From Roseinatronobacter thiooxidans (GTDB lineage Bacteria; Pseudomonadota; Alphaproteobacteria; Rhodobacterales; Rhodobacteraceae): 64,000 bases of DNA. The stretch's first letter is position 1, and every line of letters begins with the position of its first letter. Location of the stretch: NCBI RefSeq assembly GCF_001870675.1, contig NZ_MEHT01000017.1, positions 62,001-126,000 on the forward strand. The letters run 5' to 3'. Below are positions 11,393 through 20,488 of this stretch, in pieces. The notes beneath the pieces were generated by a model, which saw only the letters and a list, made by a program, of their open reading frames with translations, was not told the DNA's origin and ran no database searches. The position numbers were made by a program, and so were the translations under genes.

Positions 11393-11568
11393 GAGTCTGC
11401 TCCTGTCCGGTGGTTATTTTCAAGCAGGGTTAATCCGCAGCTTGCGGCAAAACAATGACGAAGGCGCGGCGTTTTGAGAAAGTAGCGCAAACATCGGTGC
11501 GATTGCCAAAGATCGCGCGGCACAAATGGGGCGATCTGCAGCAAGTCTGGGGGGAGGGCGCGGGCCGG

Positions 11569-11587
11569 ATATTGGAGCGGGTGAAGG
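11569..11587 (+). repeat. Left attachment repeat of the integrated element
   Basis: The 19 bases are identical to 20411-20429, the 3' end of tRNA-Gly plus four flanking bases. The identity stops on both sides (next base C here, G at the right copy). It lies 178 bases upstream of the integrase start, as expected for an element end. Confidence 0.88.
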
Positions 11588-11764
11588 CGTTCTAACTGGG
11601 GTAAAATGCCGTAACATGCTGTCACATAAAGCATTGAAAAATAAAAAGAATAAAAATTCCTTGTCGCCTTCTGTTGCATCCAGTAACACCCAATGTTATA
11701 TTTTTTGTGGGGTATGATTGCGGGTGCAATTTGCCATGTTGGAGTTGAAAGGCGGAATCGAACC
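11588..11764 (+). promoter_or_regulatory. AT-rich integrase leader region
   Basis: With 11393-11568 this forms a 372-base stretch without a convincing gene. The part left of the attachment repeat is plain chromosomal spacer. The part right of it is clearly AT-rich (runs such as AAAAATAAAAAGAATAAAAA at about 11637-11657) and must hold the integrase promoter and any integrase arm sites. The motif TGTCACAT at 11620-11627 reappears inverted at 16833-16840 upstream of the packaging genes. No clear -35/-10 pair can be named. Confidence 0.45.
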
Positions 11765-13078
11765 ATGCCGAAGAAAGCAAGAGAGCTATCAGCCAAGGAA
11801 GTGCGCGACCTGAAACACCCCGGCAAGGGGCGGAACGTGGTCTTTCCAGTTGGAGGCGTCGCTGGCCTGCTGTTGCAGATCACGCCGACCGGCGCGCGAT
11901 CATGGTTGATTCGCACCACAGTTGGAAGCCGCCGCCGTGATATTGGTCTGGGCGGTTTTCCTGATGTGACACTCGCACAGGCGCGAGAGAGGGCCAGAGA
12001 GGCCAAGGACGCGATCCGACAGGGCATTGACCCCGTGGAGCAAAGGAAGGCCGCACGCGCGGCGCTGGTGGCCGCACAGGCGCGGGGGCTGACCTTCAAG
12101 GAAGCTTGGGAACGGTTTTCAGCGCAGAAGGTGAAAGAGTTTTCAACAGATCGATACAGGGGGCAATGGAAAGCAACCGTTGAAACATACGCCTTGCCGG
12201 AACTGGGGAAGATGCTGGTCGCAGATATCACGTTGCAGGATATCTTGCGCGTGCTGCAACCGATCTGGGATGACAGAACCGTAACGGCAGTGAAGGTGCG
12301 CGAGCGCGTGGAAAAAACATTGGCATGGGCAACGGTAAACGGGCATCGAGAGGGGCCAAATCCGGCAGCATGGCGCGGCAATCTCGAAATGGTGCTGACC
12401 GCGCCTTCCAAGGTTTCAGGCGCAAAGAATTATCCCGCATTACAGATCGATGATGCGGGGCGCTGGTGGCAGGCATTACAGGCGCGCGATGGCATGGGCG
12501 CAAAGGCGCTGGCCTTTCAAGCGATGACCGCGACACGATCCGGCGCGATCCGCTTTGCGACTTGGGATGAAATCGATCTTGCGAAACGCCTTTGGACAAT
12601 CCAGCCGGGGCGGCAATCGTCAAAGATACCCGCAAACGAGAGTGCAAAGCGCATTCCTTTGACTGATGACATGGTGGCGCTTCTGGAAGCCTTGCCAAGG
12701 GCGCAGGGTAACGATCTTGTATTCTGGGCACCCAAAGGCGGGGCGCTATCCGATGCAACGCTGGCAAAGGTTATGCGCACGATACACGAGGCCGATCAGA
12801 AAGCTGGTGGCAAGGGCTATGTGGACGCCGCGACAGGTGAAGCCGCTGTGCCGCATGGGCTGCGCAGTTGTTTCAGATCATGGGTTGCAGAGCGCACCGG
12901 CTTTGATGCTGACATGGCCGAAATCGCGCTGTTTCACAAAGTGGGCAGCAAGGTGCAACAGGCTTATGATCGATCCGATCAGGTGGATAAGCGGCGCGGC
13001 ATGATGCAGGCATGGGGCGACTTCCTGCATGGGCGCGCGGCTGAAAAGGTGGTGCAGCTACAGGGGGCGCGGGGATGA
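11765..13078 (+). CDS. int: Tyrosine-type site-specific integrase (P4 family)
   Basis: The 437-residue product begins MPKKARELSAKEVRDL and has an N-terminal DUF4102-type arm-binding domain (GLLLQITPTGARSWLIRTTV, then IGLGGFPDVTLAQARERARE). A core-binding region and a C-terminal catalytic domain follow. Catalytic residues are visible: Arg in TATRSGAIRFATWDEID, the H-x-x-R box in VPHGLRSCFRSW, the LFHKVGSKV segment and the Tyr nucleophile in VQQAYDRSD. The start at 11765 is chosen over 11693 because the alignable domain starts here and the upstream stretch is AT-rich leader. It should recombine the tRNA-Gly attachment site. The following gene overlaps its stop codon by 4 bases. Confidence 0.93.
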   Translation: MPKKARELSAKEVRDLKHPGKGRNVVFPVGGVAGLLLQITPTGARSWLIRTTVGSRRRDIGLGGFPDVTLAQARERAREAKDAIRQGIDPVEQRKAARAALVAAQARGLTFKEAWERFSAQKVKEFSTDRYRGQWKATVETYALPELGKMLVADITLQDILRVLQPIWDDRTVTAVKVRERVEKTLAWATVNGHREGPNPAAWRGNLEMVLTAPSKVSGAKNYPALQIDDAGRWWQALQARDGMGAKALAFQAMTATRSGAIRFATWDEIDLAKRLWTIQPGRQSSKIPANESAKRIPLTDDMVALLEALPRAQGNDLVFWAPKGGALSDATLAKVMRTIHEADQKAGGKGYVDAATGEAAVPHGLRSCFRSWVAERTGFDADMAEIALFHKVGSKVQQAYDRSDQVDKRRGMMQAWGDFLHGRAAEKVVQLQGARG

Positions 13079-13686
13079 CTTGGATTGATGAAGATGTGCA
13101 TTTATTTGTTGCAGGCGTTGAAGCTGAAACCGGCGTTAAACTTGATGCGATCTTTCGCAAAGAATTCGCCAAACATGCAAGGCAAGATTGCGCTACCCAA
13201 TTTTGCGAAACCGTTTCCCTCGCATTGCACATGATCCACACAAACCGCAAGCAAGTCGCAGATGAGGACGGGAAAGCCATTGCAATGTCAAACAGGGCGC
13301 ATGAAATCCGAGAGGCTGCAAAGGCATTGAATAGCGCTCTTGCGGCTATTGGTAAATACGAGACAGACGACGATCCAAGCCAAGAGCATATTCTTGAAGG
13401 AAGGATTAACGGCACGGGCCTTGTGAAATTATCGCAAGAATGCACAGCGCGATTGATACAGCATTGCGATACTGTGCTGGATTTTCACGGAAAAGATCGT
13501 GGTGGGCAGAGCCGAAGCGCAGATATTGCAGGCGTTTTGATGATTGCCAGTGCTTGGCGTGACCACACTGGAAAAGAGCCGCGCGCCAAGGGAACATTCG
13601 GGGCTTTTCTGAATTCGGTTTTGTCTGAAATCGGCTGGTCTGAAATCGCGCCAAACACTCTACAAAGCTGGATGAATAGTCAGTGA
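13075..13686 (+). CDS. Hypothetical protein coupled to the integrase
   Basis: I do not recognise this 203-residue protein. It begins MTWIDEDVHLFVAGVEAETG, is mostly helical in appearance, has no signal peptide, membrane segment, Walker motif or Cys/His cluster, and ends ...GWSEIAPNTLQSWMNSQ. Its ATG overlaps the integrase stop codon (ATGA), so translation is coupled. An IRE-like or regulator role cannot be argued from the sequence. In satellites this position often holds accessory or helper-interference genes, so it is a candidate cargo or regulatory gene. The composition is more AT-rich than the flanking chromosome. An 85-base gap separates it from alpA. Confidence 0.7.
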   Translation: MTWIDEDVHLFVAGVEAETGVKLDAIFRKEFAKHARQDCATQFCETVSLALHMIHTNRKQVADEDGKAIAMSNRAHEIREAAKALNSALAAIGKYETDDDPSQEHILEGRINGTGLVKLSQECTARLIQHCDTVLDFHGKDRGGQSRSADIAGVLMIASAWRDHTGKEPRAKGTFGAFLNSVLSEIGWSEIAPNTLQSWMNSQ

Positions 13687-13771
13687 ACCCGCGATTTTTT
13701 CGCGTATTCGCTGACGGTTTTCGAGGCGAAACATAGGCCATGCATCGGTCACCGTAACAAAGGGTGAATTG

Positions 13772-13936
13772 ATGTATCTTTCCGACAAACAGGTTGCAGA
13801 ACGCTACAGCGTGACGCGGCAAACCGTGTGGCGCTGGTCGCGTGACCGTGCTGATTTTCCCAAAGCCATAACCCTATCGCAAGGCTGCACTCGCTGGAAG
13901 CTTGCCGATCTGGAAGCATGGGAGGCGCAGCGATGA
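13772..13936 (+). CDS. alpA: AlpA-family helix-turn-helix regulator
   Basis: The 54-residue protein reads MYLSDKQVAERYSVTRQTVW, then RWSRDRADFPKAITLS, and ends with RWKLADLEAWEAQR. This is the classical AlpA/MerR-like winged-helix form: helix-turn-helix of the 'VAERYSVTRQTVWRW' kind, a 'FPKAI' turn and a W-x-x-x-D-L-E-A-W tail. AlpA proteins in P4-like satellites activate integrase or excision genes and early functions. A GGGTG box lies 7 bases before the ATG. Its stop codon overlaps the next gene's start (ATGA). No other DNA-binding regulator is present in the element. Confidence 0.85.
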   Translation: MYLSDKQVAERYSVTRQTVWRWSRDRADFPKAITLSQGCTRWKLADLEAWEAQR

Positions 13937-14145
13937 TTAAATCATGCGACAGCGCAGATATTCTTGCGCGCAAAATTCGTGCGCAGTGTGATCGAGTTGA
14001 TCCGAAATTGGCGACACATGCCGCATGGCGCGTTGCCGTGGTGGTGGCGATCAAAGCCTATGGCGTGCCTTTGACGATAGACGCTTTGCGCGATCTTGCT
14101 GATGAAATTGAGCGCGACCTTATCAACAGGGGGCCGCTGCAATGA
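13933..14145 (+). CDS. Small hypothetical protein of the replication operon (70 aa)
   Basis: The product begins MIKSCDSADILARKIRAQCD and ends with IERDLINRGPLQ. It is a soluble, helical 70-residue protein without recognisable motifs. It overlaps alpA by 4 bases at the front and the next gene by 4 bases at the end, the same coupling that runs through to the primase gene, which argues that it is translated. The function is unknown. Confidence 0.6.
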   Translation: MIKSCDSADILARKIRAQCDRVDPKLATHAAWRVAVVVAIKAYGVPLTIDALRDLADEIERDLINRGPLQ

Positions 14146-14300
14146 AGCAAGAAATTCTTTCGATTATAGGCCAAATACGCTTCCTGATGGTGCTGATCGA
14201 AACCGGCGAGTTGTGTGAATACGAAATCCAATTTCGCACAAACTGCATATGCGCAGACCTTGAACGCATTGCGGACCTATTGCCGGAGGTGGACGCATGA
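14142..14300 (+). CDS. Small hypothetical protein of the replication operon (52 aa)
   Basis: This 52-residue reading frame begins MKQEILSIIGQIRFLMVLIE and ends with ADLLPEVDA. It contains two Cys in RTNCICADLE. It overlaps the 70-residue gene in front and the primase gene behind by 4 bases each (ATGA). A GGAGG box for the primase lies at its 3' end. Real translation is supported by this coupling only; the function is unknown. Confidence 0.5.
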   Translation: MKQEILSIIGQIRFLMVLIETGELCEYEIQFRTNCICADLERIADLLPEVDA

Positions 14301-16582
14301 ATATGCAGGACAAGATCAGCGGTTGCGCACAAGCTGCGCAGGAATACGCCGCGCGCGGCTGGCATGTTTTCCCTGTTCCCGTTGGAAAGAAGGAAAGTCA
14401 CAAGAGCGCGAAATTCAGCAACGGGCGAAAGTGGGGTGCGACCACAGACCTGCAAGAGATTGCGCAGGATTGGCGACAATGGCCTGAAGCAAATATCGGA
14501 ATCGTGACCGGGCCGAAATCGGGCCTTCTGGTGATCGAGGCAGACACCGAAGCGGGCCACAGTGTTGACGGCATCGGAAATCTTGCGGCACTGATTGAAC
14601 AGAACGGCCCATTGCCTGACACAATCGAAGCGCTTTCACCTTCTGGATCGTGGCACTTGTTTTTCAAATGGCCTGAAGGCTGGGATATCCGCAACAGTGC
14701 AGGGCAGGTTGCGCCGGGTGTTGATGTGCGCGGCGATGGTGGCATGGTGGTTGCCGTGCCAAGCGTGAAGCCTAGGCACGACAAGCCCTATAGGTGGAAA
14801 AACCCGCCGGGGCTGTTCGACCTGGGTGATTGTCCTGATTGGCTGTTGCGCCTTTGCCTGAAGCCCGAACCCAAACTTTTAGAGCGGGCCATGCCTATGC
14901 GCAGCACCGGCAACGCATGGGCTGAAACCGCCTTGCGTGGCGAAATCGCAGAATTGCTGGCAGCGCCAGAAGGCAAGCGAAACGCCGCGCTGAATAAAGC
15001 CGCCTTCAGCTTGGGGCAGATCATGGCAGGGGGCAGCTTGTCAGAAGGGCTTGTAGTGGAAAGGCTGACAGTGACAGCACAAGGCATAGGGCTTGAGCCG
15101 GTCGAGATTGAGGCCACAATTCAATCAGGAATGCAGGCAGGGGCAAAAGAGCCGCGCACACCGAAATCAGATTTACCGGCTCACACAAGCGATGGTGAAC
15201 CGCGCCCAAACCAGCGCGATGACGCCTTGGACTTGTCACATGATGCGCTTGCAAACGAAATGGGCAGGCGCGGGTTTAGTCGGAATGCCCGCTATGTTTC
15301 CACATGGGGGAAATGGCTGTTCTGGGACAGAACCAGATGGACAGTTGATGAGCGTATGGAACACATGACGCGCACCCGCGAATTTCTGCGCACGCGCGCT
15401 GCTGAGATGTTGGCATGGGCAGAACGAAAGGCGGCAACACTTGAAGCTGAAAAGGCCGACAAGCTGATGAAATGGGCAGAACAGGAAGCCCGGACGCTAC
15501 GCAACAAGAACACGGTTGCAGCGATTGAAAGCCTTGCACGGTCGAACAGTGACAGCGTGGCCAGCCCTGATCTGTTCGATGCTGACCGCCTGTTACTAGG
15601 AACACCCGGCGGCACGGTGGATCTGCGCACAGGCAAGATGCGTCTTGCGCGGCGCGAGGATTACATCACGAAGTTGACCAGCGTCACGCCACAATCAGGC
15701 ACGCCGCGCCTATGGCTGCAATTCCTGAATGAAATCTTTGACGGTGACGCCGATCTTATCGCCTTCATGCAGCGTGCCGCAGGCTATGCGCTGACCGGCG
15801 AAACGCGCGAACACAAACTGCTGTTTCTTTATGGCACAGGTCGCAACGGGAAATCGGTTTTCCTGAATATGCTGTTCGATATTTGGGGCGATTATGCCAA
15901 GCGCGCGGCTGCGCAAACCTTCCTGAACACCAACGGCGACAAACACCCGACAGATGTTGCAGGGCTTCAGGGTGCAAGGCTGGTTGCTGGTTCTGAATTG
16001 CCCAAAGGCAAGACATGGGATGAAAGCGTAATCAAAGACCTGACCGGCGGCGATAAGATGACCGCACGGTATATGCGCCAAGACTTTTTCGACTTTGACC
16101 CACAGTTGACCCTGATGATTGCAGGCAACAATCAGCCTTCATTCAGGGGCGTTGATGAGGCGATCAGGGCGCGCGTGGTGCTTGTGCCGTTTACAGTCAC
16201 GATACCGCCAGAGCGGCGCGATAAGCACCTGCCCGACAAGCTGAAGGCCGAAGCGGGGCAGATACTCGCATGGGCTATAGAAGGGGCGCTACAGTGGCAG
16301 GAAAAGGGCTTGGACGTGCCAGCCAAGGTTGCAGCGGCATCAAGTGAATACTTTGATGATGAGGACACGCTAGGCCAATTTCTGACAGATGAAACAGAAC
16401 GCGGCGATGCAATGGCCTTTGTCACTACTTCTGCACTGCACCAGCGCTTCACACAATGGTGCGACCAGCAAGGGCTGAATAGTTGGACGCTGCGCACGCT
16501 TCAGAAGGAAGTAAGATCACGCGGCTATGACGTAAAACGCCGCAATATCGGGGCAGGCTTTCTGGGCTTGAAGCTGAAATGA
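14297..16582 (+). CDS. Primase-helicase (AEP prim-pol plus D5/P4-type helicase)
   Basis: The 761-residue product joins an N-terminal archaeo-eukaryotic primase/polymerase domain (about residues 10-200) to a C-terminal superfamily 3-like helicase of the phage/plasmid primase P4 family (about 430-740). In the primase part the metal-binding acidic motif reads LLVIEAD (E81, D83) and the later His motif reads SGSWHL (H120). In the helicase the Walker A motif is GTGRNGKS (513-520), followed by the D5-type GDKMTARYMRQ and IAGNNQPSFRG segments and ARVVLVPF. Such fused proteins initiate replication of P4-like satellites and PICIs by binding iterons, unwinding and priming. The inverted iteron-like repeat starting 8 bases after its stop codon fits that role. 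It is coupled to the small genes upstream. Confidence 0.9.
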   Translation: MNMQDKISGCAQAAQEYAARGWHVFPVPVGKKESHKSAKFSNGRKWGATTDLQEIAQDWRQWPEANIGIVTGPKSGLLVIEADTEAGHSVDGIGNLAALIEQNGPLPDTIEALSPSGSWHLFFKWPEGWDIRNSAGQVAPGVDVRGDGGMVVAVPSVKPRHDKPYRWKNPPGLFDLGDCPDWLLRLCLKPEPKLLERAMPMRSTGNAWAETALRGEIAELLAAPEGKRNAALNKAAFSLGQIMAGGSLSEGLVVERLTVTAQGIGLEPVEIEATIQSGMQAGAKEPRTPKSDLPAHTSDGEPRPNQRDDALDLSHDALANEMGRRGFSRNARYVSTWGKWLFWDRTRWTVDERMEHMTRTREFLRTRAAEMLAWAERKAATLEAEKADKLMKWAEQEARTLRNKNTVAAIESLARSNSDSVASPDLFDADRLLLGTPGGTVDLRTGKMRLARREDYITKLTSVTPQSGTPRLWLQFLNEIFDGDADLIAFMQRAAGYALTGETREHKLLFLYGTGRNGKSVFLNMLFDIWGDYAKRAAAQTFLNTNGDKHPTDVAGLQGARLVAGSELPKGKTWDESVIKDLTGGDKMTARYMRQDFFDFDPQLTLMIAGNNQPSFRGVDEAIRARVVLVPFTVTIPPERRDKHLPDKLKAEAGQILAWAIEGALQWQEKGLDVPAKVAAASSEYFDDEDTLGQFLTDETERGDAMAFVTTSALHQRFTQWCDQQGLNSWTLRTLQKEVRSRGYDVKRRNIGAGFLGLKLK

Positions 16583-16903
16583 AGGTGAAAGTGTAGGAAG
16601 TGTAGGTTCTAGGGTTATCGGGCGTATAGCAAAATTCAGAACGTCTTTTTCCCTATACGGTGGATAAGGGGCAAACCTACACTTCCTACACTCTGTTGTA
16701 AGATTGGCCCGATATTACCGGCGTAACATATCGCTTCTGATCGACCCACTACCTGCGAATCATTCTCAATAAGGGCCGGTTCTATTCCCATGATGGGGGC
16801 AATACAGCATTGTTATTGTTGATTATTACAGCATGTGACAATGCAACCCTGTATCATACCCTACAAAAATCAGCTACAATGCAAGGCGAACTAGGGGGCA
16901 GAT
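16583..16903. other. Non-coding gap between replication and packaging modules
   Basis: 321 bases hold no convincing gene. The first 110 bases contain the iteron-like inverted repeat described separately. The remainder is AT-richer and must contain the promoter of the packaging-capsid operon. It shows an inverted repeat GCATTGT/ACAATGC (16807-16813 and 16838-16844), a direct repeat ACAATGCAA (16838-16846 and 16876-16884), and the motif ATGTGACA (16833-16840) shared with the integrase leader. No clear -35/-10 pair could be assigned. Confidence 0.6.
16590..16692. repeat. Iteron-like inverted repeat, candidate replication origin
   Basis: A 19-bp arm AGTGTAGGAAGTGTAGGTT (16590-16608) is repeated perfectly in inverse orientation at 16674-16692, 65 bases apart. 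Each arm is itself a tandem pair of AGTGTAGG, giving four iterons. Inside, a second imperfect inverted pair TTATC-ggg-CGTATAG and CTATACG-gtg-GATAA frames a central A/T-rich stretch. There is no T-run, so a terminator is less likely. Iterons flanking a melting region next to a primase-helicase gene are the layout of P4-like and PICI origins; that function is inferred. Confidence 0.65.
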
Positions 16904-17254
16904 ATGCCAGATTTACCGCAGCGATACAGCGCAGATTGGATTGAAAAGCTTGACGGTCGCACCACGCTGGCAAAGGTGGTGCAATCGCGCCTTGCTGAAT
17001 TGCAAGCTGATCTGGGCGGGCCGCATTCCCTGTCATATCAAGAGCGCAGCTTGACCCGGCGCGCGGTATGGCTGGAAGCCCTGATCGAGAGCCGCGAGGC
17101 TGCACTTGCGCGCGGTGAAGAGATTGAAGAGGGCGTGCATACACAATCGATCAATGCCCTGATGGGCGTTTGGAAAGCCCTTGGGCTGCAACGCCGCGCA
17201 AAGGATGTGACCGATCTGGCAACGTATCTGCGCAGCAAGGCGGGTGCTGCATGA
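16904..17254 (+). CDS. Putative small terminase subunit (by position)
   Basis: The 116-residue protein begins MPDLPQRYSADWIEKLDGRT and is largely helical, with a charged central region (SLTRRAVWLEALIESREAAL). It directly precedes and overlaps terL by 4 bases (ATGA), the usual place and size of a small terminase subunit, whose role is to recognise the packaging site and dock DNA to the motor. I cannot see a decisive TerS signature, so the call rests on size, context and coupling. A GGGGG box lies 6 bases before the ATG. If it is TerS it would give the element its own packaging specificity. Confidence 0.6.
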   Translation: MPDLPQRYSADWIEKLDGRTTLAKVVQSRLAELQADLGGPHSLSYQERSLTRRAVWLEALIESREAALARGEEIEEGVHTQSINALMGVWKALGLQRRAKDVTDLATYLRSKAGAA

Positions 17255-18723
17255 GTGTCACGATCCGCGATGCAATGACCGATCCGCAGTTGTTTGGCGA
17301 TACTTTTGCAGGGGACAGCTTCAAGGCATGGCGCGCACTGCTATCAGGCTTTTATGGGCTGGAACTATCCGCTGATGAGGCCGCGATCTGGAACGAGGTG
17401 ACAGGGCGCACAGAACAGGCCACAGGGGCGCATGATGAGTTGTGGCTTGTGGTTGGTCGCAGAGGCGGCAAGAGCCATGCAGCGGCGCTTGTGGCAGCGT
17501 ATGAAGCGGCCTTCAAGGATTACAGCGACAGGCTTTCACCGGGTGAAGTTGCAACGGTGATGCTTATTGCCGGTGATCGATCACAAGCGCGCACGCTGTT
17601 GCGCTATGTGCGCGGCCTGTTTGAACACCCGATGTTGAAGCCCTTGGTGTTGCGAGAGACAAGCGAAGGGCTGGAACTGAAAAACCGCACTGCGATTGAA
17701 GTGCATACGGCATCTCACCGGGCAGTGCGCGGCTACACATGCGCAGCCGTGATCTGCGATGAAATTGCATTTTGGTTTTCCGATGGTGCGCGCCCTGATG
17801 CTGAAGTGATAGCCGCCTTGCGCCCTGCATTGGCAACGCTAGGCGGCAAGCTGATTGCACTGTCATCGCCCTATGCGCGGCGCGGAATGCTTTGGACAAC
17901 GTATAAGCGGCATTATGGCAAGGCATCGCAGGTGCTGGTCGCGCAGGCTGCTAGTCGCACCATGAACCCGACCTTGCCTAAACGTGTTGTTGATGATGCG
18001 CTGAAGGATGACGCGGCAAGGGCGAGTGCTGAATACTTGGCGCAGTTTCGCGCGGATATTGAGCAATTCATATCCGTTGAGGTTGTCACAGATGCGCAGC
18101 GCGACAGGCCGTTGGAATTGCCGCGTCAAGATGGTGTTTCCTATTCGGGCTTTGTTGACATGAGCGGTGGCGGCGCTGATGAGCATTCCCTTGCGATTGC
18201 GCACCGTGAAGGCGAGCGGATTATAGTTGATCTTGTGCAGGGTCGCAGGGGCGATCCTGAATCGGCTGTTGCGGCATTTTGCGAAGTGCTGAAGGCATAC
18301 GGCATCGGCACGGTGCATGGCGACAGATACGCGGGCCAGTGGGTGCCAGCGGCATTTCAGCGGCATGGGATCAGCTATCAGGCGGCAAAGCAAAACCGCA
18401 GTGAACTTTATGCATCGTTTGCACCGGCTTTGAATGCTGGGCAGGTGGAATTGCCGCCGGATGATGTAATGGCGCGCCAGTTTTCATCTTTGGAGCGGCG
18501 CACCACGCGCGGGGGGCGGGATCAGATCGACCATGCACCCGGCGCGCATGATGACAGATCAAACGCTTGTGCAGGGGCTGTTACGCTTTGCCTGACTGCC
18601 CGCACAGGCGGTTTCATGGTGTTGGAAGCTGAAGGTGTTTTCGCCCATGAGAATGACGAATTTGCACCCGGTATAAGAGATCGATTCCCTTGGTTGGGGG
18701 TGAGTGCCGGGATGCATTACTGA
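17251..18723 (+). CDS. terL: Phage terminase large subunit (TerL)
   Basis: The 490-residue product contains a complete packaging motor. In the ATPase half, Walker A is VGRRGGKS (68-75) and Walker B is VICDE (167-171, catalytic E171), followed by the coupling motif LIALSSPYARRG. In the RNase H-like nuclease half, the acidic residues are D303 in FVDMSGGG, D358 in HGDRYAGQW and D434/D435 in APGAHDDRSNA. The start at 17251 overlaps the stop of the putative TerS gene. Nothing suggests decay: both active sites are intact. It should translocate element or helper DNA into procapsids through a portal, yet no portal gene exists in the element. The stop codon overlaps the start of a 40-codon micro-ORF (TGATG). 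Confidence 0.92.
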   Translation: MSVTIRDAMTDPQLFGDTFAGDSFKAWRALLSGFYGLELSADEAAIWNEVTGRTEQATGAHDELWLVVGRRGGKSHAAALVAAYEAAFKDYSDRLSPGEVATVMLIAGDRSQARTLLRYVRGLFEHPMLKPLVLRETSEGLELKNRTAIEVHTASHRAVRGYTCAAVICDEIAFWFSDGARPDAEVIAALRPALATLGGKLIALSSPYARRGMLWTTYKRHYGKASQVLVAQAASRTMNPTLPKRVVDDALKDDAARASAEYLAQFRADIEQFISVEVVTDAQRDRPLELPRQDGVSYSGFVDMSGGGADEHSLAIAHREGERIIVDLVQGRRGDPESAVAAFCEVLKAYGIGTVHGDRYAGQWVPAAFQRHGISYQAAKQNRSELYASFAPALNAGQVELPPDDVMARQFSSLERRTTRGGRDQIDHAPGAHDDRSNACAGAVTLCLTARTGGFMVLEAEGVFAHENDEFAPGIRDRFPWLGVSAGMHY

Positions 18724-18845
18724 TGGTGAGGCCAGAGACCAGCGGGATGCTGGGTTGGGTTTTCCAGTGGCTGACCAGCGGGATGCTGGGGCTGCGAAAT
18801 GGAGATGAAAACCATATCGCAGAAAGGACACGCGATGAATACTGA
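18723..18845 (+). CDS. Micro-ORF between terL and the capsid gene (40 aa)
   Basis: The frame reads MVRPETSGMLGWVFQWLTSG and ends with IAERTRDEY. Its ATG overlaps the terL stop codon (TGATG) and its end overlaps the start of the capsid gene by 11 bases, so it bridges the two genes in one coupled chain. TSGMLG occurs twice, because the DNA holds an 18-bp direct repeat. No homologue is known to me. It may be a real microprotein, or only a translational bridge created by the repeat. Confidence 0.4.
   Translation: MVRPETSGMLGWVFQWLTSGMLGLRNGDENHIAERTRDEY
18737..18790 (+). repeat. Tandem 18-bp hairpin repeat between terL and capsid genes
   Basis: GACCAGCGGGATGCTGGG occurs at 18737-18754 and again at 18773-18790, 36 bases apart. 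Each copy contains a small hairpin (CCAGC, loop GGGAT, GCTGG). The spacing is a multiple of three, so the repeat also duplicates TSGMLG in the micro-ORF. A role in mRNA processing or protein binding is possible but unproven. Confidence 0.65.
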
Positions 18846-19959
18846 ACTTAAGGAAATCGTTGACTTGACAGCCAATGTTAAAGCGATGGTTGAGAAAAAG
18901 CATTCCGATTTTGACCGCCGGTTGAACCAGCTTCAAGCGGTGATGGGGCGTCCTGATTTTGCCGGTGAAGCCGCCGTGCATGAAAAGGGCGATGAAGCAA
19001 AATCGATTGACGCATGGGCGCGATCTGGTGAATTCGAGACAAAGGCGCTTTCGATTGTTTCGGATGGTCAAGGCGTGGTGGTGCGCGGTGATTGGTCTGA
19101 TCGTATCTTCAAGCTGGTGCGCGAGACTTCACCAGTGCGACAGGCTGCAAGCGTTCTGCGCACAAGCAAGACAACGCTTGAAGTGCTGGTGGATCGTGGC
19201 GAGCCGAATTCGGCTTGGGTTGCAGAGACTGGCACCCGCGCGCCGACAGCGGCCAGCTTCCTGACCCGGCACCCGATCGAAACGCATGAACACTATGCTT
19301 ATCCCGCCGTGACAAATCACTTGCTGGCAGATGCTGATTTTGATGTTGAAGGTTGGTTGCAAGCCAAGATTGGCACCCGCTTTGGCCGTCAAGAGGCCGC
19401 AGCCTTCATTAACGGTGATGGGGTTGGCAAGGCGCGTGGCATCTTAAACTACACCCGCGTTCCAGATGAGGATTTCACATGGGGCGCTGATCCTGATGCG
19501 TATCAGATTGGCACGGTGTATTCTGGCCTGAATGGTGGCTTTGGAAGTGACGGCATCGATACACTGGGCGATCTGGTGGACAGCCTGAAGGCGGATTATC
19601 TGCCCGGCGCGGCATTTATGATGACGCGGGCCATGCGCAATCTTCTGCGCAAGCTGAAGGACGCGGAAAGCCGCCCATTCTTGCAGCCTTCCTTGTCTGA
19701 AGCGTTGCCGGATCGTTTGATGGGCTATCCCGTGTTTCTGGCCGAAGATATGCCCGCGCTGGGGACTGATGCGGTGGGAATGCTGTTTGGCAATTTCGCC
19801 CAAGCCTATACGGTTGTTGACCGCATGGGAATTCAGGTGATCCGCGATCCGTATTCGCAACCGGGCTTTGTGCGTTACTACGTTTCAAAGCGCGTGGGTG
19901 GTGCCGTGACCAATCCAGAGGCCGTGAAGGCGCTGGTGCTGGGCATCAAGCCTGAATGA
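18835..19959 (+). CDS. HK97-fold phage major capsid protein
   Basis: The 374-residue protein has an N-terminal coiled-coil-like region (about residues 1-45, DLTANVKAMVEKKHSDFDRR) resembling the scaffolding delta domain of HK97. The capsid fold follows, with VRETSPVRQAASVL, VAETGTRAPT, AAAFINGDGVGKARGILNY and GYPVFLAEDMPALG, all characteristic of the phage_capsid family. The start at 18835 has AAGGA 7 bases upstream; an earlier ATG at 18799 lacks a good site. It should build the icosahedral shell. HK97-type capsids normally need a portal, and often a protease to remove the delta domain, but neither is encoded here. A hairpin terminator lies 121 bases downstream. Confidence 0.9.
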   Translation: MNTELKEIVDLTANVKAMVEKKHSDFDRRLNQLQAVMGRPDFAGEAAVHEKGDEAKSIDAWARSGEFETKALSIVSDGQGVVVRGDWSDRIFKLVRETSPVRQAASVLRTSKTTLEVLVDRGEPNSAWVAETGTRAPTAASFLTRHPIETHEHYAYPAVTNHLLADADFDVEGWLQAKIGTRFGRQEAAAFINGDGVGKARGILNYTRVPDEDFTWGADPDAYQIGTVYSGLNGGFGSDGIDTLGDLVDSLKADYLPGAAFMMTRAMRNLLRKLKDAESRPFLQPSLSEALPDRLMGYPVFLAEDMPALGTDAVGMLFGNFAQAYTVVDRMGIQVIRDPYSQPGFVRYYVSKRVGGAVTNPEAVKALVLGIKPE

Positions 19960-20079
19960 TTACCCTAGCCGCCAAGGGGCCGAAAGGCGCAGGGCGGATG
20001 CGGATTAGCCGGATCGTGCCGCAATTCGAGAAAACACCGGCAGCACTGGGCTTTGTGAACCCGAAGTTGACAGTGCAGG

Positions 20080-20106
20080 GGGCAGGCTTTCGGGCCTGCC
20101 CTTTTT
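20080..20106 (+). terminator. Rho-independent terminator of the packaging-capsid operon
   Basis: A perfect 8-bp stem (GGGCAGGC at 20080-20087, GCCTGCCC at 20094-20101) with a 6-base loop is followed by TTTTT. It lies 121 bases past the capsid stop codon and ends the late transcript. Confidence 0.85.
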
Positions 20107-20125
20107 CACAAGAGGGGGCTTTGAT

Positions 20126-20323
20126 GTGGCGGTAAATCCTGATCTTGCTTTGTGGCGTGCTGTTCTGGTCGCTGGCCTGCATGATGCCGCGAAAGGCATA
20201 GATGAGGCATGGCTAGGATCACGCGACTTTATGGCGGTGTGCGATCTTGCGCAGGTCGAGCCGCAGGCGGTGTTGCGCGCCTATCGGCCAGATCGATTCG
20301 CCAGAATGCCGAAAGTAGCATGA
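20126..20323 (+). CDS. Small conserved-looking protein at the right end of the element
   Basis: A 65-residue frame with a GTG start begins VAVNPDLALWRAVLVAGLHD, contains AWLGSRDFMAVCDLAQVEP and ends with YRPDRFARMPKVA. A strong GAGGGGG box lies 10 bases before the GTG. The pattern 'WLGSRDF..VC.LA.V.P..VLR' resembles small proteins I recall from Rhodobacterales prophages and plasmids, without known function. It lies beyond the terminator and 87 bases before the right attachment repeat, where excision or replication accessory genes are sometimes placed. The function is unknown. Confidence 0.6.
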   Translation: MAVNPDLALWRAVLVAGLHDAAKGIDEAWLGSRDFMAVCDLAQVEPQAVLRAYRPDRFARMPKVA

Positions 20324-20410
20324 AACAAGCGTTTTTTCGTTGATGGGTATTCAGGCGGGTAAGCTGAATTACCTTCAAGAAAATCCTTTAATTTCATGCG
20401 CTTACGGGGA

Positions 20411-20429
20411 ATATTGGAGCGGGTGAAGG
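20411..20429 (+). repeat. Right attachment repeat of the integrated element
   Basis: The 19 bases equal those at 11569-11587. Fifteen of them are the 3' end of tRNA-Gly(CCC) on the minus strand, and the other four lie outside the tRNA. The element therefore ends here and the tRNA gene stays intact. Confidence 0.88.
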
Positions 20430-20488
20430 GAATCGAACCCTCGTATTCAGCTTGGGAAGCTGCTGCTCTACCATTGAGCTACACCCGC
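20415..20488 (-). tRNA. tRNA-Gly (anticodon CCC)
   Basis: The 74-nt minus-strand sequence folds as a cloverleaf. The acceptor stem GCGGGTG/CACCCGC pairs perfectly, and the D arm GCTC..GAGC, the anticodon loop TTCCCAA (anticodon CCC) and the T arm with GGTTCGATTCC are all present, with CCA encoded at the end (TCCA). The body closely matches known bacterial tRNA-Gly(CCC) genes. One pair at the top of the anticodon stem is G/A. The 3' end serves as the attachment site of the integrated element. Confidence 0.95.

Follow-up and report, generated by a model that had tools for sequence, protein, structure and literature searches.

A candidate family of tRNA-integrating phage satellites in Alphaproteobacteria with its own terminase and a swappable shell module

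Phage-inducible chromosomal islands (PICIs) and P4-like satellites share a set consisting of an integrase, AlpA, and a primase-replicase, and the Staphylococcus aureus pathogenicity islands (SaPIs) have an iteron-type replication origin. Other PICIs and the PICI-like elements (PLEs) depend on a helper capsid and a helper terminase, with at most a small terminase subunit (TerS) of their own, and the Rhodobacter capsulatus gene transfer agent (RcGTA) packages host DNA. P4 and SaPIs, too, are described in the consulted sections of PMC10690885 as using the capsid of the helper and its terminase for packaging, at most with their own TerS. The same sections attribute to the capsid-forming PICIs (cf-PICIs) a capsid, a protease, a portal, connectors, both terminase subunits, and HNH, and to the Streptomyces satellites MulchRoom and MiniFlayer their own terminase and capsid along with a portal, a scaffold, and an adapter, without a primase. 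In the literature examined, including these sections, satellites are described either as users of a helper capsid or as carriers of a full head module. Here, we describe an element of Roseinatronobacter thiooxidans (Rhodobacterales), located at positions 11569-20429 of the 64,000-nt stretch of contig NZ_MEHT01000017.1 that was analyzed (hereafter, the window), which encodes its own large terminase subunit (TerL) and an HK97-type capsid protein. At a probability of about 0.58, we favor its interpretation as a phage satellite that integrates at tRNA genes and brings replication genes of its own; the family to which it would belong is centered on a self-encoded TerS-TerL pair combined with a swappable shell module directly after TerL.

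The element is integrated at a tRNA-Gly(CCC) gene between exact 19-nt repeats (Table 1), which are spaced by 8,842 nt and embedded in a 28-nt stretch that is 86% alike. When 9 of 20 loci were set against the window flanks, the empty site was found in three genomes of the same genus (L113, L116, and L119), where the aldolase gene that flanks the left attachment site (attL) lies 143 to 149 nt from an uninterrupted tRNA-Gly gene, followed by the right flank; the aldolase gene is absent from the other six of these loci, one of which is the window's own locus. The GC content of the element is 55.4%, compared to 60.6% in the remaining window, and, with the starts chosen here, 8,078 of its 8,861 bases are coding. 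For the integrase, TerL, and capsid genes, the starts corrected by comparison with relatives are probably 11765, 17251, and 18835, respectively. The order of the genes is integrase, 203-aa protein, AlpA, two small genes, primase, intergenic region, TerS-position gene, TerL, capsid, and two small genes, followed by the tRNA gene. Two generic features of phage satellites, site-specific integration with defined attachment ends and an incomplete set of virion genes, are both found here. The first-pass annotation of this DNA, which had described 19-bp repeats in the tRNA gene, an integrase, AlpA, a primase-helicase, and a set of intact and tightly coupled genes, holds on each of these points: the exact repeats were located, all three proteins are matched by Pfam profiles, and the coding share and precise attachment sites speak for intactness.

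In an alignment of seven TerL sequences including that of the window, GRRGGKSH, DEI-FW, SSPY, D302, D357, D433, and D434 are invariant, motifs that we take to be Walker A, Walker B, coupling, and nuclease. Nothing in Pfam scored over the cut-off; given the match to phrog_2 and the retention of the ATPase and nuclease residues in all seven rows, TerL can be regarded as intact, as initially proposed. In six relatives, the gene preceding TerL is 31 to 45% identical to its counterpart in the window and is likewise conserved next to TerL. Its size, place, and conservation are those expected of TerS, but no profile recognizes it, and the TerS assignment is positional. A search of 50,697 phage records yielded 8 matches for TerL, at 23 to 32% identity, and 550 for the capsid protein, all below 60% identity, the first listed at 37%.

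The capsid protein, also predicted as HK97-type at the outset, is matched by PF05065 (E 1e-74) and, over nearly its full length, by TIGR01554 (E 4.7e-86). Ranked by sequence, solved homologs are headed by a pair of RcGTA-type capsid entries (E 1.3e-61), followed by the major head protein of the cf-PICI EcCI2 (9gyi; E 1.1e-26). AlphaFold models reached a pLDDT of 33.7 with 4 alignment rows and 60.6 with 30 rows, and comparison of the 30-row model with HK97-type capsids produced low TM-scores (0.42/0.53 at best), so that the assignment of the HK97 fold rests on sequence. At the N-terminus, the model predicts a long helix that spans residues 7-49 of the open frame; helices of this kind act as the built-in scaffold of HK97-type proteins. 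The same capsid follows TerL in three other genera, at 58 to 61% identity, and the stretch from TerL to the tRNA gene lacks a portal there, too. In a phylogenetic tree, the four satellite capsids form one clade (support 100/100) apart from the capsids of 13 GTAs and 12 phages; in this unrooted tree, Azospirillum phage Cd joins the clade, but its branch is long and the placement doubtful. Pairs of these capsids differ by 0.18 to 0.44 at nonsynonymous sites (dN) and by 1.29 to 2.21 at synonymous sites (dS), with NG86 dN/dS ratios of approximately 0.13 to 0.34 at near-saturated dS. As judged from these comparisons, the four proteins constitute a satellite-only clade under purifying selection. A scan of viral contigs with the capsid query recovered one distant locus, and scans with the TerL query and the capsid alignment recovered none.

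Among the 10 proteins searched against Pfam, PHROGs, and NCBIfam (the 52-aa open reading frame [ORF] was outside these searches), no profile match to a portal, protease, connector, tail, lysis, or HNH protein was obtained; for the integrase, PHROGs gave a head-protein match at 0.042, which was discarded as noise. The only coding-strand ORFs of at least 280 aa encode the integrase, primase, TerL, and capsid, the next longest being 203 aa, so that no unassigned ORF of portal length is left. The lack of portal, protease, connector, tail, and lysis genes stated in the first-pass annotation is borne out for the proteins searched, and the portal that it had considered might hide among the unknown genes did not appear. 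Across the 10 elements with both ends defined, the coding-strand ORFs of this length encode integrases, replication proteins, TerL, capsids, a tape-measure-like protein, a transposase, and one L013 slot protein (302 aa, without a PHROGs match); a 294-aa ORF of L015 was assigned by its 89% identity to the Toprim protein of L013, and L046 has its integrase gene, along with a methylase ORF, on the opposite strand.

The position directly after TerL, which we refer to as the slot, is readable in 16 elements, namely, the window and 15 loci (L042, L045, and L071 are unreadable, and L069 and L070 unprofiled). Four slots, from four genera, contain the HK97-type capsid (window, L044, L066, and L068), and three others (L015, L064, and L065) contain a scaffold and an unrelated capsid, with the three capsids being 68 to 72% identical. 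The latter assignment comes from L065, where the two proteins match phrog_247 (capsid; E 1.6e-97) and phrog_206 (scaffold; E 1.3e-7), and was extended to L015 and L064 by similarity. One protein family occupies the slot in L012, L016, L067, and L043 (each of the six pairwise comparisons at E 1.5e-4 or lower), another in L013 and L046 (E 2e-22), and further proteins of unknown function are found in L010, L014, and L041; the proteins of these non-capsid slots look helical by eye and are approximately 200 to 300 aa long in some members. In distant relatives, TerL is followed by a DUF2213 head-maturation protease (Komagataeibacter plasmid), a Mu-I-type protease (a viral contig), or proteins of unknown function (Methylobacterium plasmid). 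No portal was seen in any readable slot, including those of the distant relatives. The set of TerL plus capsid suggested at first recurs in three more genera, but this capsid is missing in 12 of the 16 slots, three of which hold an unrelated capsid with its scaffold, and the lasting unit is therefore TerS-TerL rather than TerL plus capsid. In L065, the region 11428-14453, after the scaffold and capsid, contains a tail-fiber-like 89-aa ORF and a 493-aa tape-measure-like ORF, and still no portal.

Relatives were sought in genome draws that overlap and whose counts include the source genome. The window TerL matched 6 of 147 genomes (its own, four of the same genus, and one weakly), and one further locus was identified in Antarcticimicrobium luteum, of the order Rhodobacterales. 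A profile of the seven TerL rows matched 5 of 394 genomes in the family draw, 15 of 390 in the order draw (10 strongly), and 6 of 385 in the class draw (two strongly besides the source genome, and one partially); matches weaker than E 1e-10 were left aside (5, 2, and 1 in the order draw, class draw, and 147-genome set, respectively). Both ends could be defined in 10 of the 15 tRNA-linked loci tested, including the window, at distances of 8,629 to 11,102 nt and with repeats of 15 to 58 nt; no end repeat was found in the other five, and the size of L015 includes an ISL3-type transposase gene. The targets of the sized elements span six isoacceptors, tRNA-Gly(CCC), Gly(UCC), Tyr, Cys, Arg, and Pro, and members for which the far end was not found are linked to tRNA Asn and Leu. 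The first-pass annotation had proposed to look for size-conserved, 8- to 10-kb relatives at tRNA-Gly; the relatives form a size-conserved set of 8.6 to 11.1 kb at tRNA genes and are not the full-length prophages that would have refuted its proposal. The replication genes vary across the family, the core of which is TerS-TerL. In the TerL tree, the TerLs of the capsid-bearing elements group together (93/94), but with the weakly placed L046 and the unreadable-slot elements L042 and L045 among them, and the members with the second capsid type do not form one group, so that slots appear to move between TerLs. A scan of viral contigs with the TerL alignment yielded 11 loci, of which six were annotated. 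The TerL family also occurs, at 44 to 47% identity, on two kinds of alphaproteobacterial plasmids; one plasmid, pKNA06 of Komagataeibacter nataicola (L039), carries a satellite-looking, partly duplicated set comprising a VapE-domain protein, a recombinase, a TerS-position gene, TerL, and the DUF2213 protease.

Table 1. Features of the element and its integration site (window coordinates).
Feature	Position	Strand	Basis or remark
attL	11569..11587	.	direct repeat (19 nt) of the 3' part of tRNA-Gly(CCC)
Operator-like 17-nt motif before integrase	11702..11718	+	inverted partner at 16853-16869, 16/17 identical
Tyrosine integrase	11765..13078	+	PF00589, Arm-DNA-bind_3, Phage_int_M; frame open from 11693; start inferred from relatives
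203-aa protein	13075..13686	+	no match in Pfam, PHROGs, NCBIfam
AlpA-type regulator/excisionase	13772..13936	+	PF05930, HTH_17, phrog_66
75-aa protein	13918..14145	+	no match in Pfam, PHROGs; two sub-threshold, chance-level NCBIfam matches
52-aa protein	14142..14300	+	ORF call
Prim-Pol/D5 primase-helicase, P4-family C-terminus	14297..16582	+	Prim-Pol, D5_N, DUF5906; TIGR01613 E 8.4e-90
Iteron-like inverted array	16590..16692	.	2x AGTGTAGG, 2x CCTACACT; 19-nt arms
Operator-like 17-nt motif before TerS-position gene	16853..16869	-	partner of 11702-11718
TerS-position gene, 116 aa	16904..17254	+	position, co-conservation with TerL; no profile match
TerL, large terminase	17251..18723	+	phrog_2 E 1.3e-16; conserved catalytic residues
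HK97-type major capsid protein	18835..19959	+	PF05065, TIGR01554; frame open from 18799
Small ORF, 59 aa	19956..20135	+	no match in Pfam, PHROGs, NCBIfam
Small terminal gene orf11, 65 aa	20126..20323	+	homolog in 7 of 15 other elements
attR	20411..20429	.	second copy of the 19-nt repeat
tRNA-Gly(CCC)	20415..20488	-	integration target

The intergenic region upstream of the TerS-position gene contains an iteron-like array, the four copies of which were reached in none of 200 shuffles and which is probably the replication origin. Repeated 8-mers, element-specific in sequence, are present in the 600 nt before TerS in other members as well; of 17 elements, nine have a count that no more than one shuffle in 200 attained, and the excess is weak or absent in the remaining eight. 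Clear inverted arms were observed in two elements, with a length of 19 nt and a spacing of 65 nt in that of the window and a length of 17 nt in L013. The operator-like motifs before the integrase and TerS-position genes, which like the array go unmentioned in the first-pass annotation, are the sole two matches to this 17-nt sequence in the window, although as many were obtained in 7 of 100 shuffles. Of 10 elements tested, 7 share a motif between the regions upstream of the integrase and TerS beyond every one of 30 mononucleotide shuffles. These are the window element and six of the nine others, each with a version of its own at both places; the margin is 1 nt in three of them (L013, L015, and L064). 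Because the motifs of L013 and L015, and those of L016, L064, and L045, are related, these results are not independent. The shared motif suggests that excision and packaging could be under joint control. A scan for sigma-70 promoters and terminators detected no excess.

Taken together, these features suggest a division of labor in which the satellite would supply the shell and the motor, and the helper would provide the portal, protease, connectors, and tail. When a helper enters or induction sets in, a regulator working through the motif common to the regions upstream of integrase and TerS would switch on excision and the packaging operon, and the element would replicate from the iteron-like array by means of its own primase. 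The capsid protein, scaffolded by its N-terminal helix, would then assemble around a helper portal, the satellite terminase would fill the particle with satellite DNA, and helper protease, connectors, and tail would finish it. The set of genes after TerL should correspond to the shell-assembly need of each type, that is, a lone self-scaffolded capsid in one and a capsid with a separate scaffold in the other. We give even odds to the broader proposal that these elements represent a new alphaproteobacterial family, in which a conserved TerS-TerL motor is combined not with a portal but with interchangeable minimal shell kits (self-scaffolded capsid; capsid with scaffold; protease; and further factors of unknown function) that build hybrid heads on a helper portal, and in which the portal, not the shell, defines the choice of helper. 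If this is the case, a head module is divisible, with the portal as the point of division, portal compatibility becomes directly testable, and the slots offer natural minimal shell kits.

Compared with the described systems, the element resembles cf-PICIs such as EcCI2 in being a small integrative satellite with its own large terminase and a homologous capsid, but differs in that the portal, protease, connectors, and HNH that cf-PICIs encode were not found among the 10 proteins searched. With P4-like satellites, PICIs, SaPIs, and PLEs, it shares an integrase, AlpA, a primase, and possible capsid-acting genes, whereas its own TerL and, in some members, its own capsid set it apart. Like MulchRoom and MiniFlayer, it has its own terminase and capsid; unlike here, a portal, scaffold, and adapter are present in these satellites and a primase is missing. 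Among the matches listed in a search of the open-access literature, no title or abstract concerned portal-less capsid satellites or satellites of Rhodobacterales, and the present results suggest that satellites with their own large terminase in this order and in other Alphaproteobacteria may escape finders built on standard gene sets.

Several points weigh against interpreting the element as a satellite that brings its own motor and shell. Particle, excision, and packaging are predictions, and the terminase would have to dock on a helper portal, and the shell to close on it, with a compatibility that is presumed. No helper was found, the search of the source genome for three portal families yielding a GTA portal alone. 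The TerS label would follow from place, size, and co-conservation with TerL; a recognized capsid gene is absent from the slot in 9 of 16 elements; and one of the four capsid-bearing copies, L068, has lost the N-terminus of TerL. Furthermore, TerL is 37 to 40% identical in three phage-like viral contigs (L026, L032, and L033), so that distant phages have the same type of TerL. In these contigs, portal-sized genes of 837 to 912 aa lie downstream of TerL.

A hybrid head on a helper portal would be the simplest use of the module after TerL, and interference with the helper shell is its main rival. Under the latter scenario, which we consider rather unlikely, the capsid protein would be an interference or size-redirection factor that co-assembles with or poisons the helper shell, with satellite DNA ending up in helper-made or mosaic heads. 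The alteration of helper shells by P4 and SaPIs, as described in part of PMC10690885, provides a precedent, the helical-looking slot proteins of other members could be scaffold-like, and two distant relatives have a protease at this position. However, a complete capsid with an N-terminal helix has been kept under purifying selection, and the other capsid type comes with its own scaffold, which together point to a shell-making set rather than a poison.

The helper could also be the GTA of the host, such that the satellite capsid and terminase would use the GTA portal, protease, connectors, and tail, and perhaps a full T=3 head, an improbable arrangement. Portals were sought through the families PF04860, PF05136, and PF16510. 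In the source genome, these families yielded one portal, that of the GTA cluster L017 (G000:C41), which matches Rcc01684 at E 4.3e-179, and PF04860 exceeded the cut-off in 12 of 13 satellite hosts, with one strong match in each of the four capsid-bearing hosts. PF16510 was found in none of the 13, but lambda-type PF05136 portals are present in nine (two or three matches in seven of these), including three of the four capsid-bearing hosts; as this count covers satellite hosts alone, no helper can be derived from the one-portal PF04860 result. RcGTA, an RcGTA-type cluster being resident in the host genome, provides the closest solved capsid, and when capsid loci outside the satellites were extracted from 292 genomes of the order, the best 27 all proved to be 57 to 82% identical to the GTA capsid of the source genome. 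According to PMC7296036, RcGTA heads are T=3-derived, hold 4 to 4.5 kb of DNA, and fall 35% short of the volume of a T=3 head; by our arithmetic, a T=3 head would hold 6 to 9 kb. Against this, the capsid was matched in 262 of the 292 genomes, so that co-occurrence with a GTA means little, and the GTA capsid of the source genome is closer to some phages (43 to 46%) than to the satellite capsid (37 to 38%). Members with other slot types have the same TerL family, which is not GTA-like (best local match, E 0.053). The competence route is the presumed way into the cell for DNA that a GTA delivers, and it fits an element with an integrase poorly. Derivation of the satellite capsid from a GTA, as distinct from the use of a GTA as helper, was rejected given the separate 100/100 clades of satellite and GTA capsids and the TerL comparison. 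RcGTA also differs from the element in encoding a full head-tail cluster.

An origin as a prophage remnant, or as a decaying satellite whose head module was originally complete, is very improbable and mostly refuted: the truncated TerL of L068, the ISL3-type transposase of L015, and the transposase-like fragments seen by eye in L045 are signs of decay, but the window element combines intact, tightly coupled genes with precise attachment sites, size-conserved relatives, and purifying selection on its capsid. The idea of an encapsulin-like compartment unrelated to DNA packaging, prompted by encapsulins among the weaker fold matches of the capsid model, deserves hardly any credence, as the capsid gene directly follows TerL or a TerL remnant in all four loci and its sequence matches are to phage capsid families. 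As a separate observation, TerS-like and TerL sequence is joined in one frame in L041 (4237-5943) and L068 (6542-7516), and the capsid gene of L068 is open.

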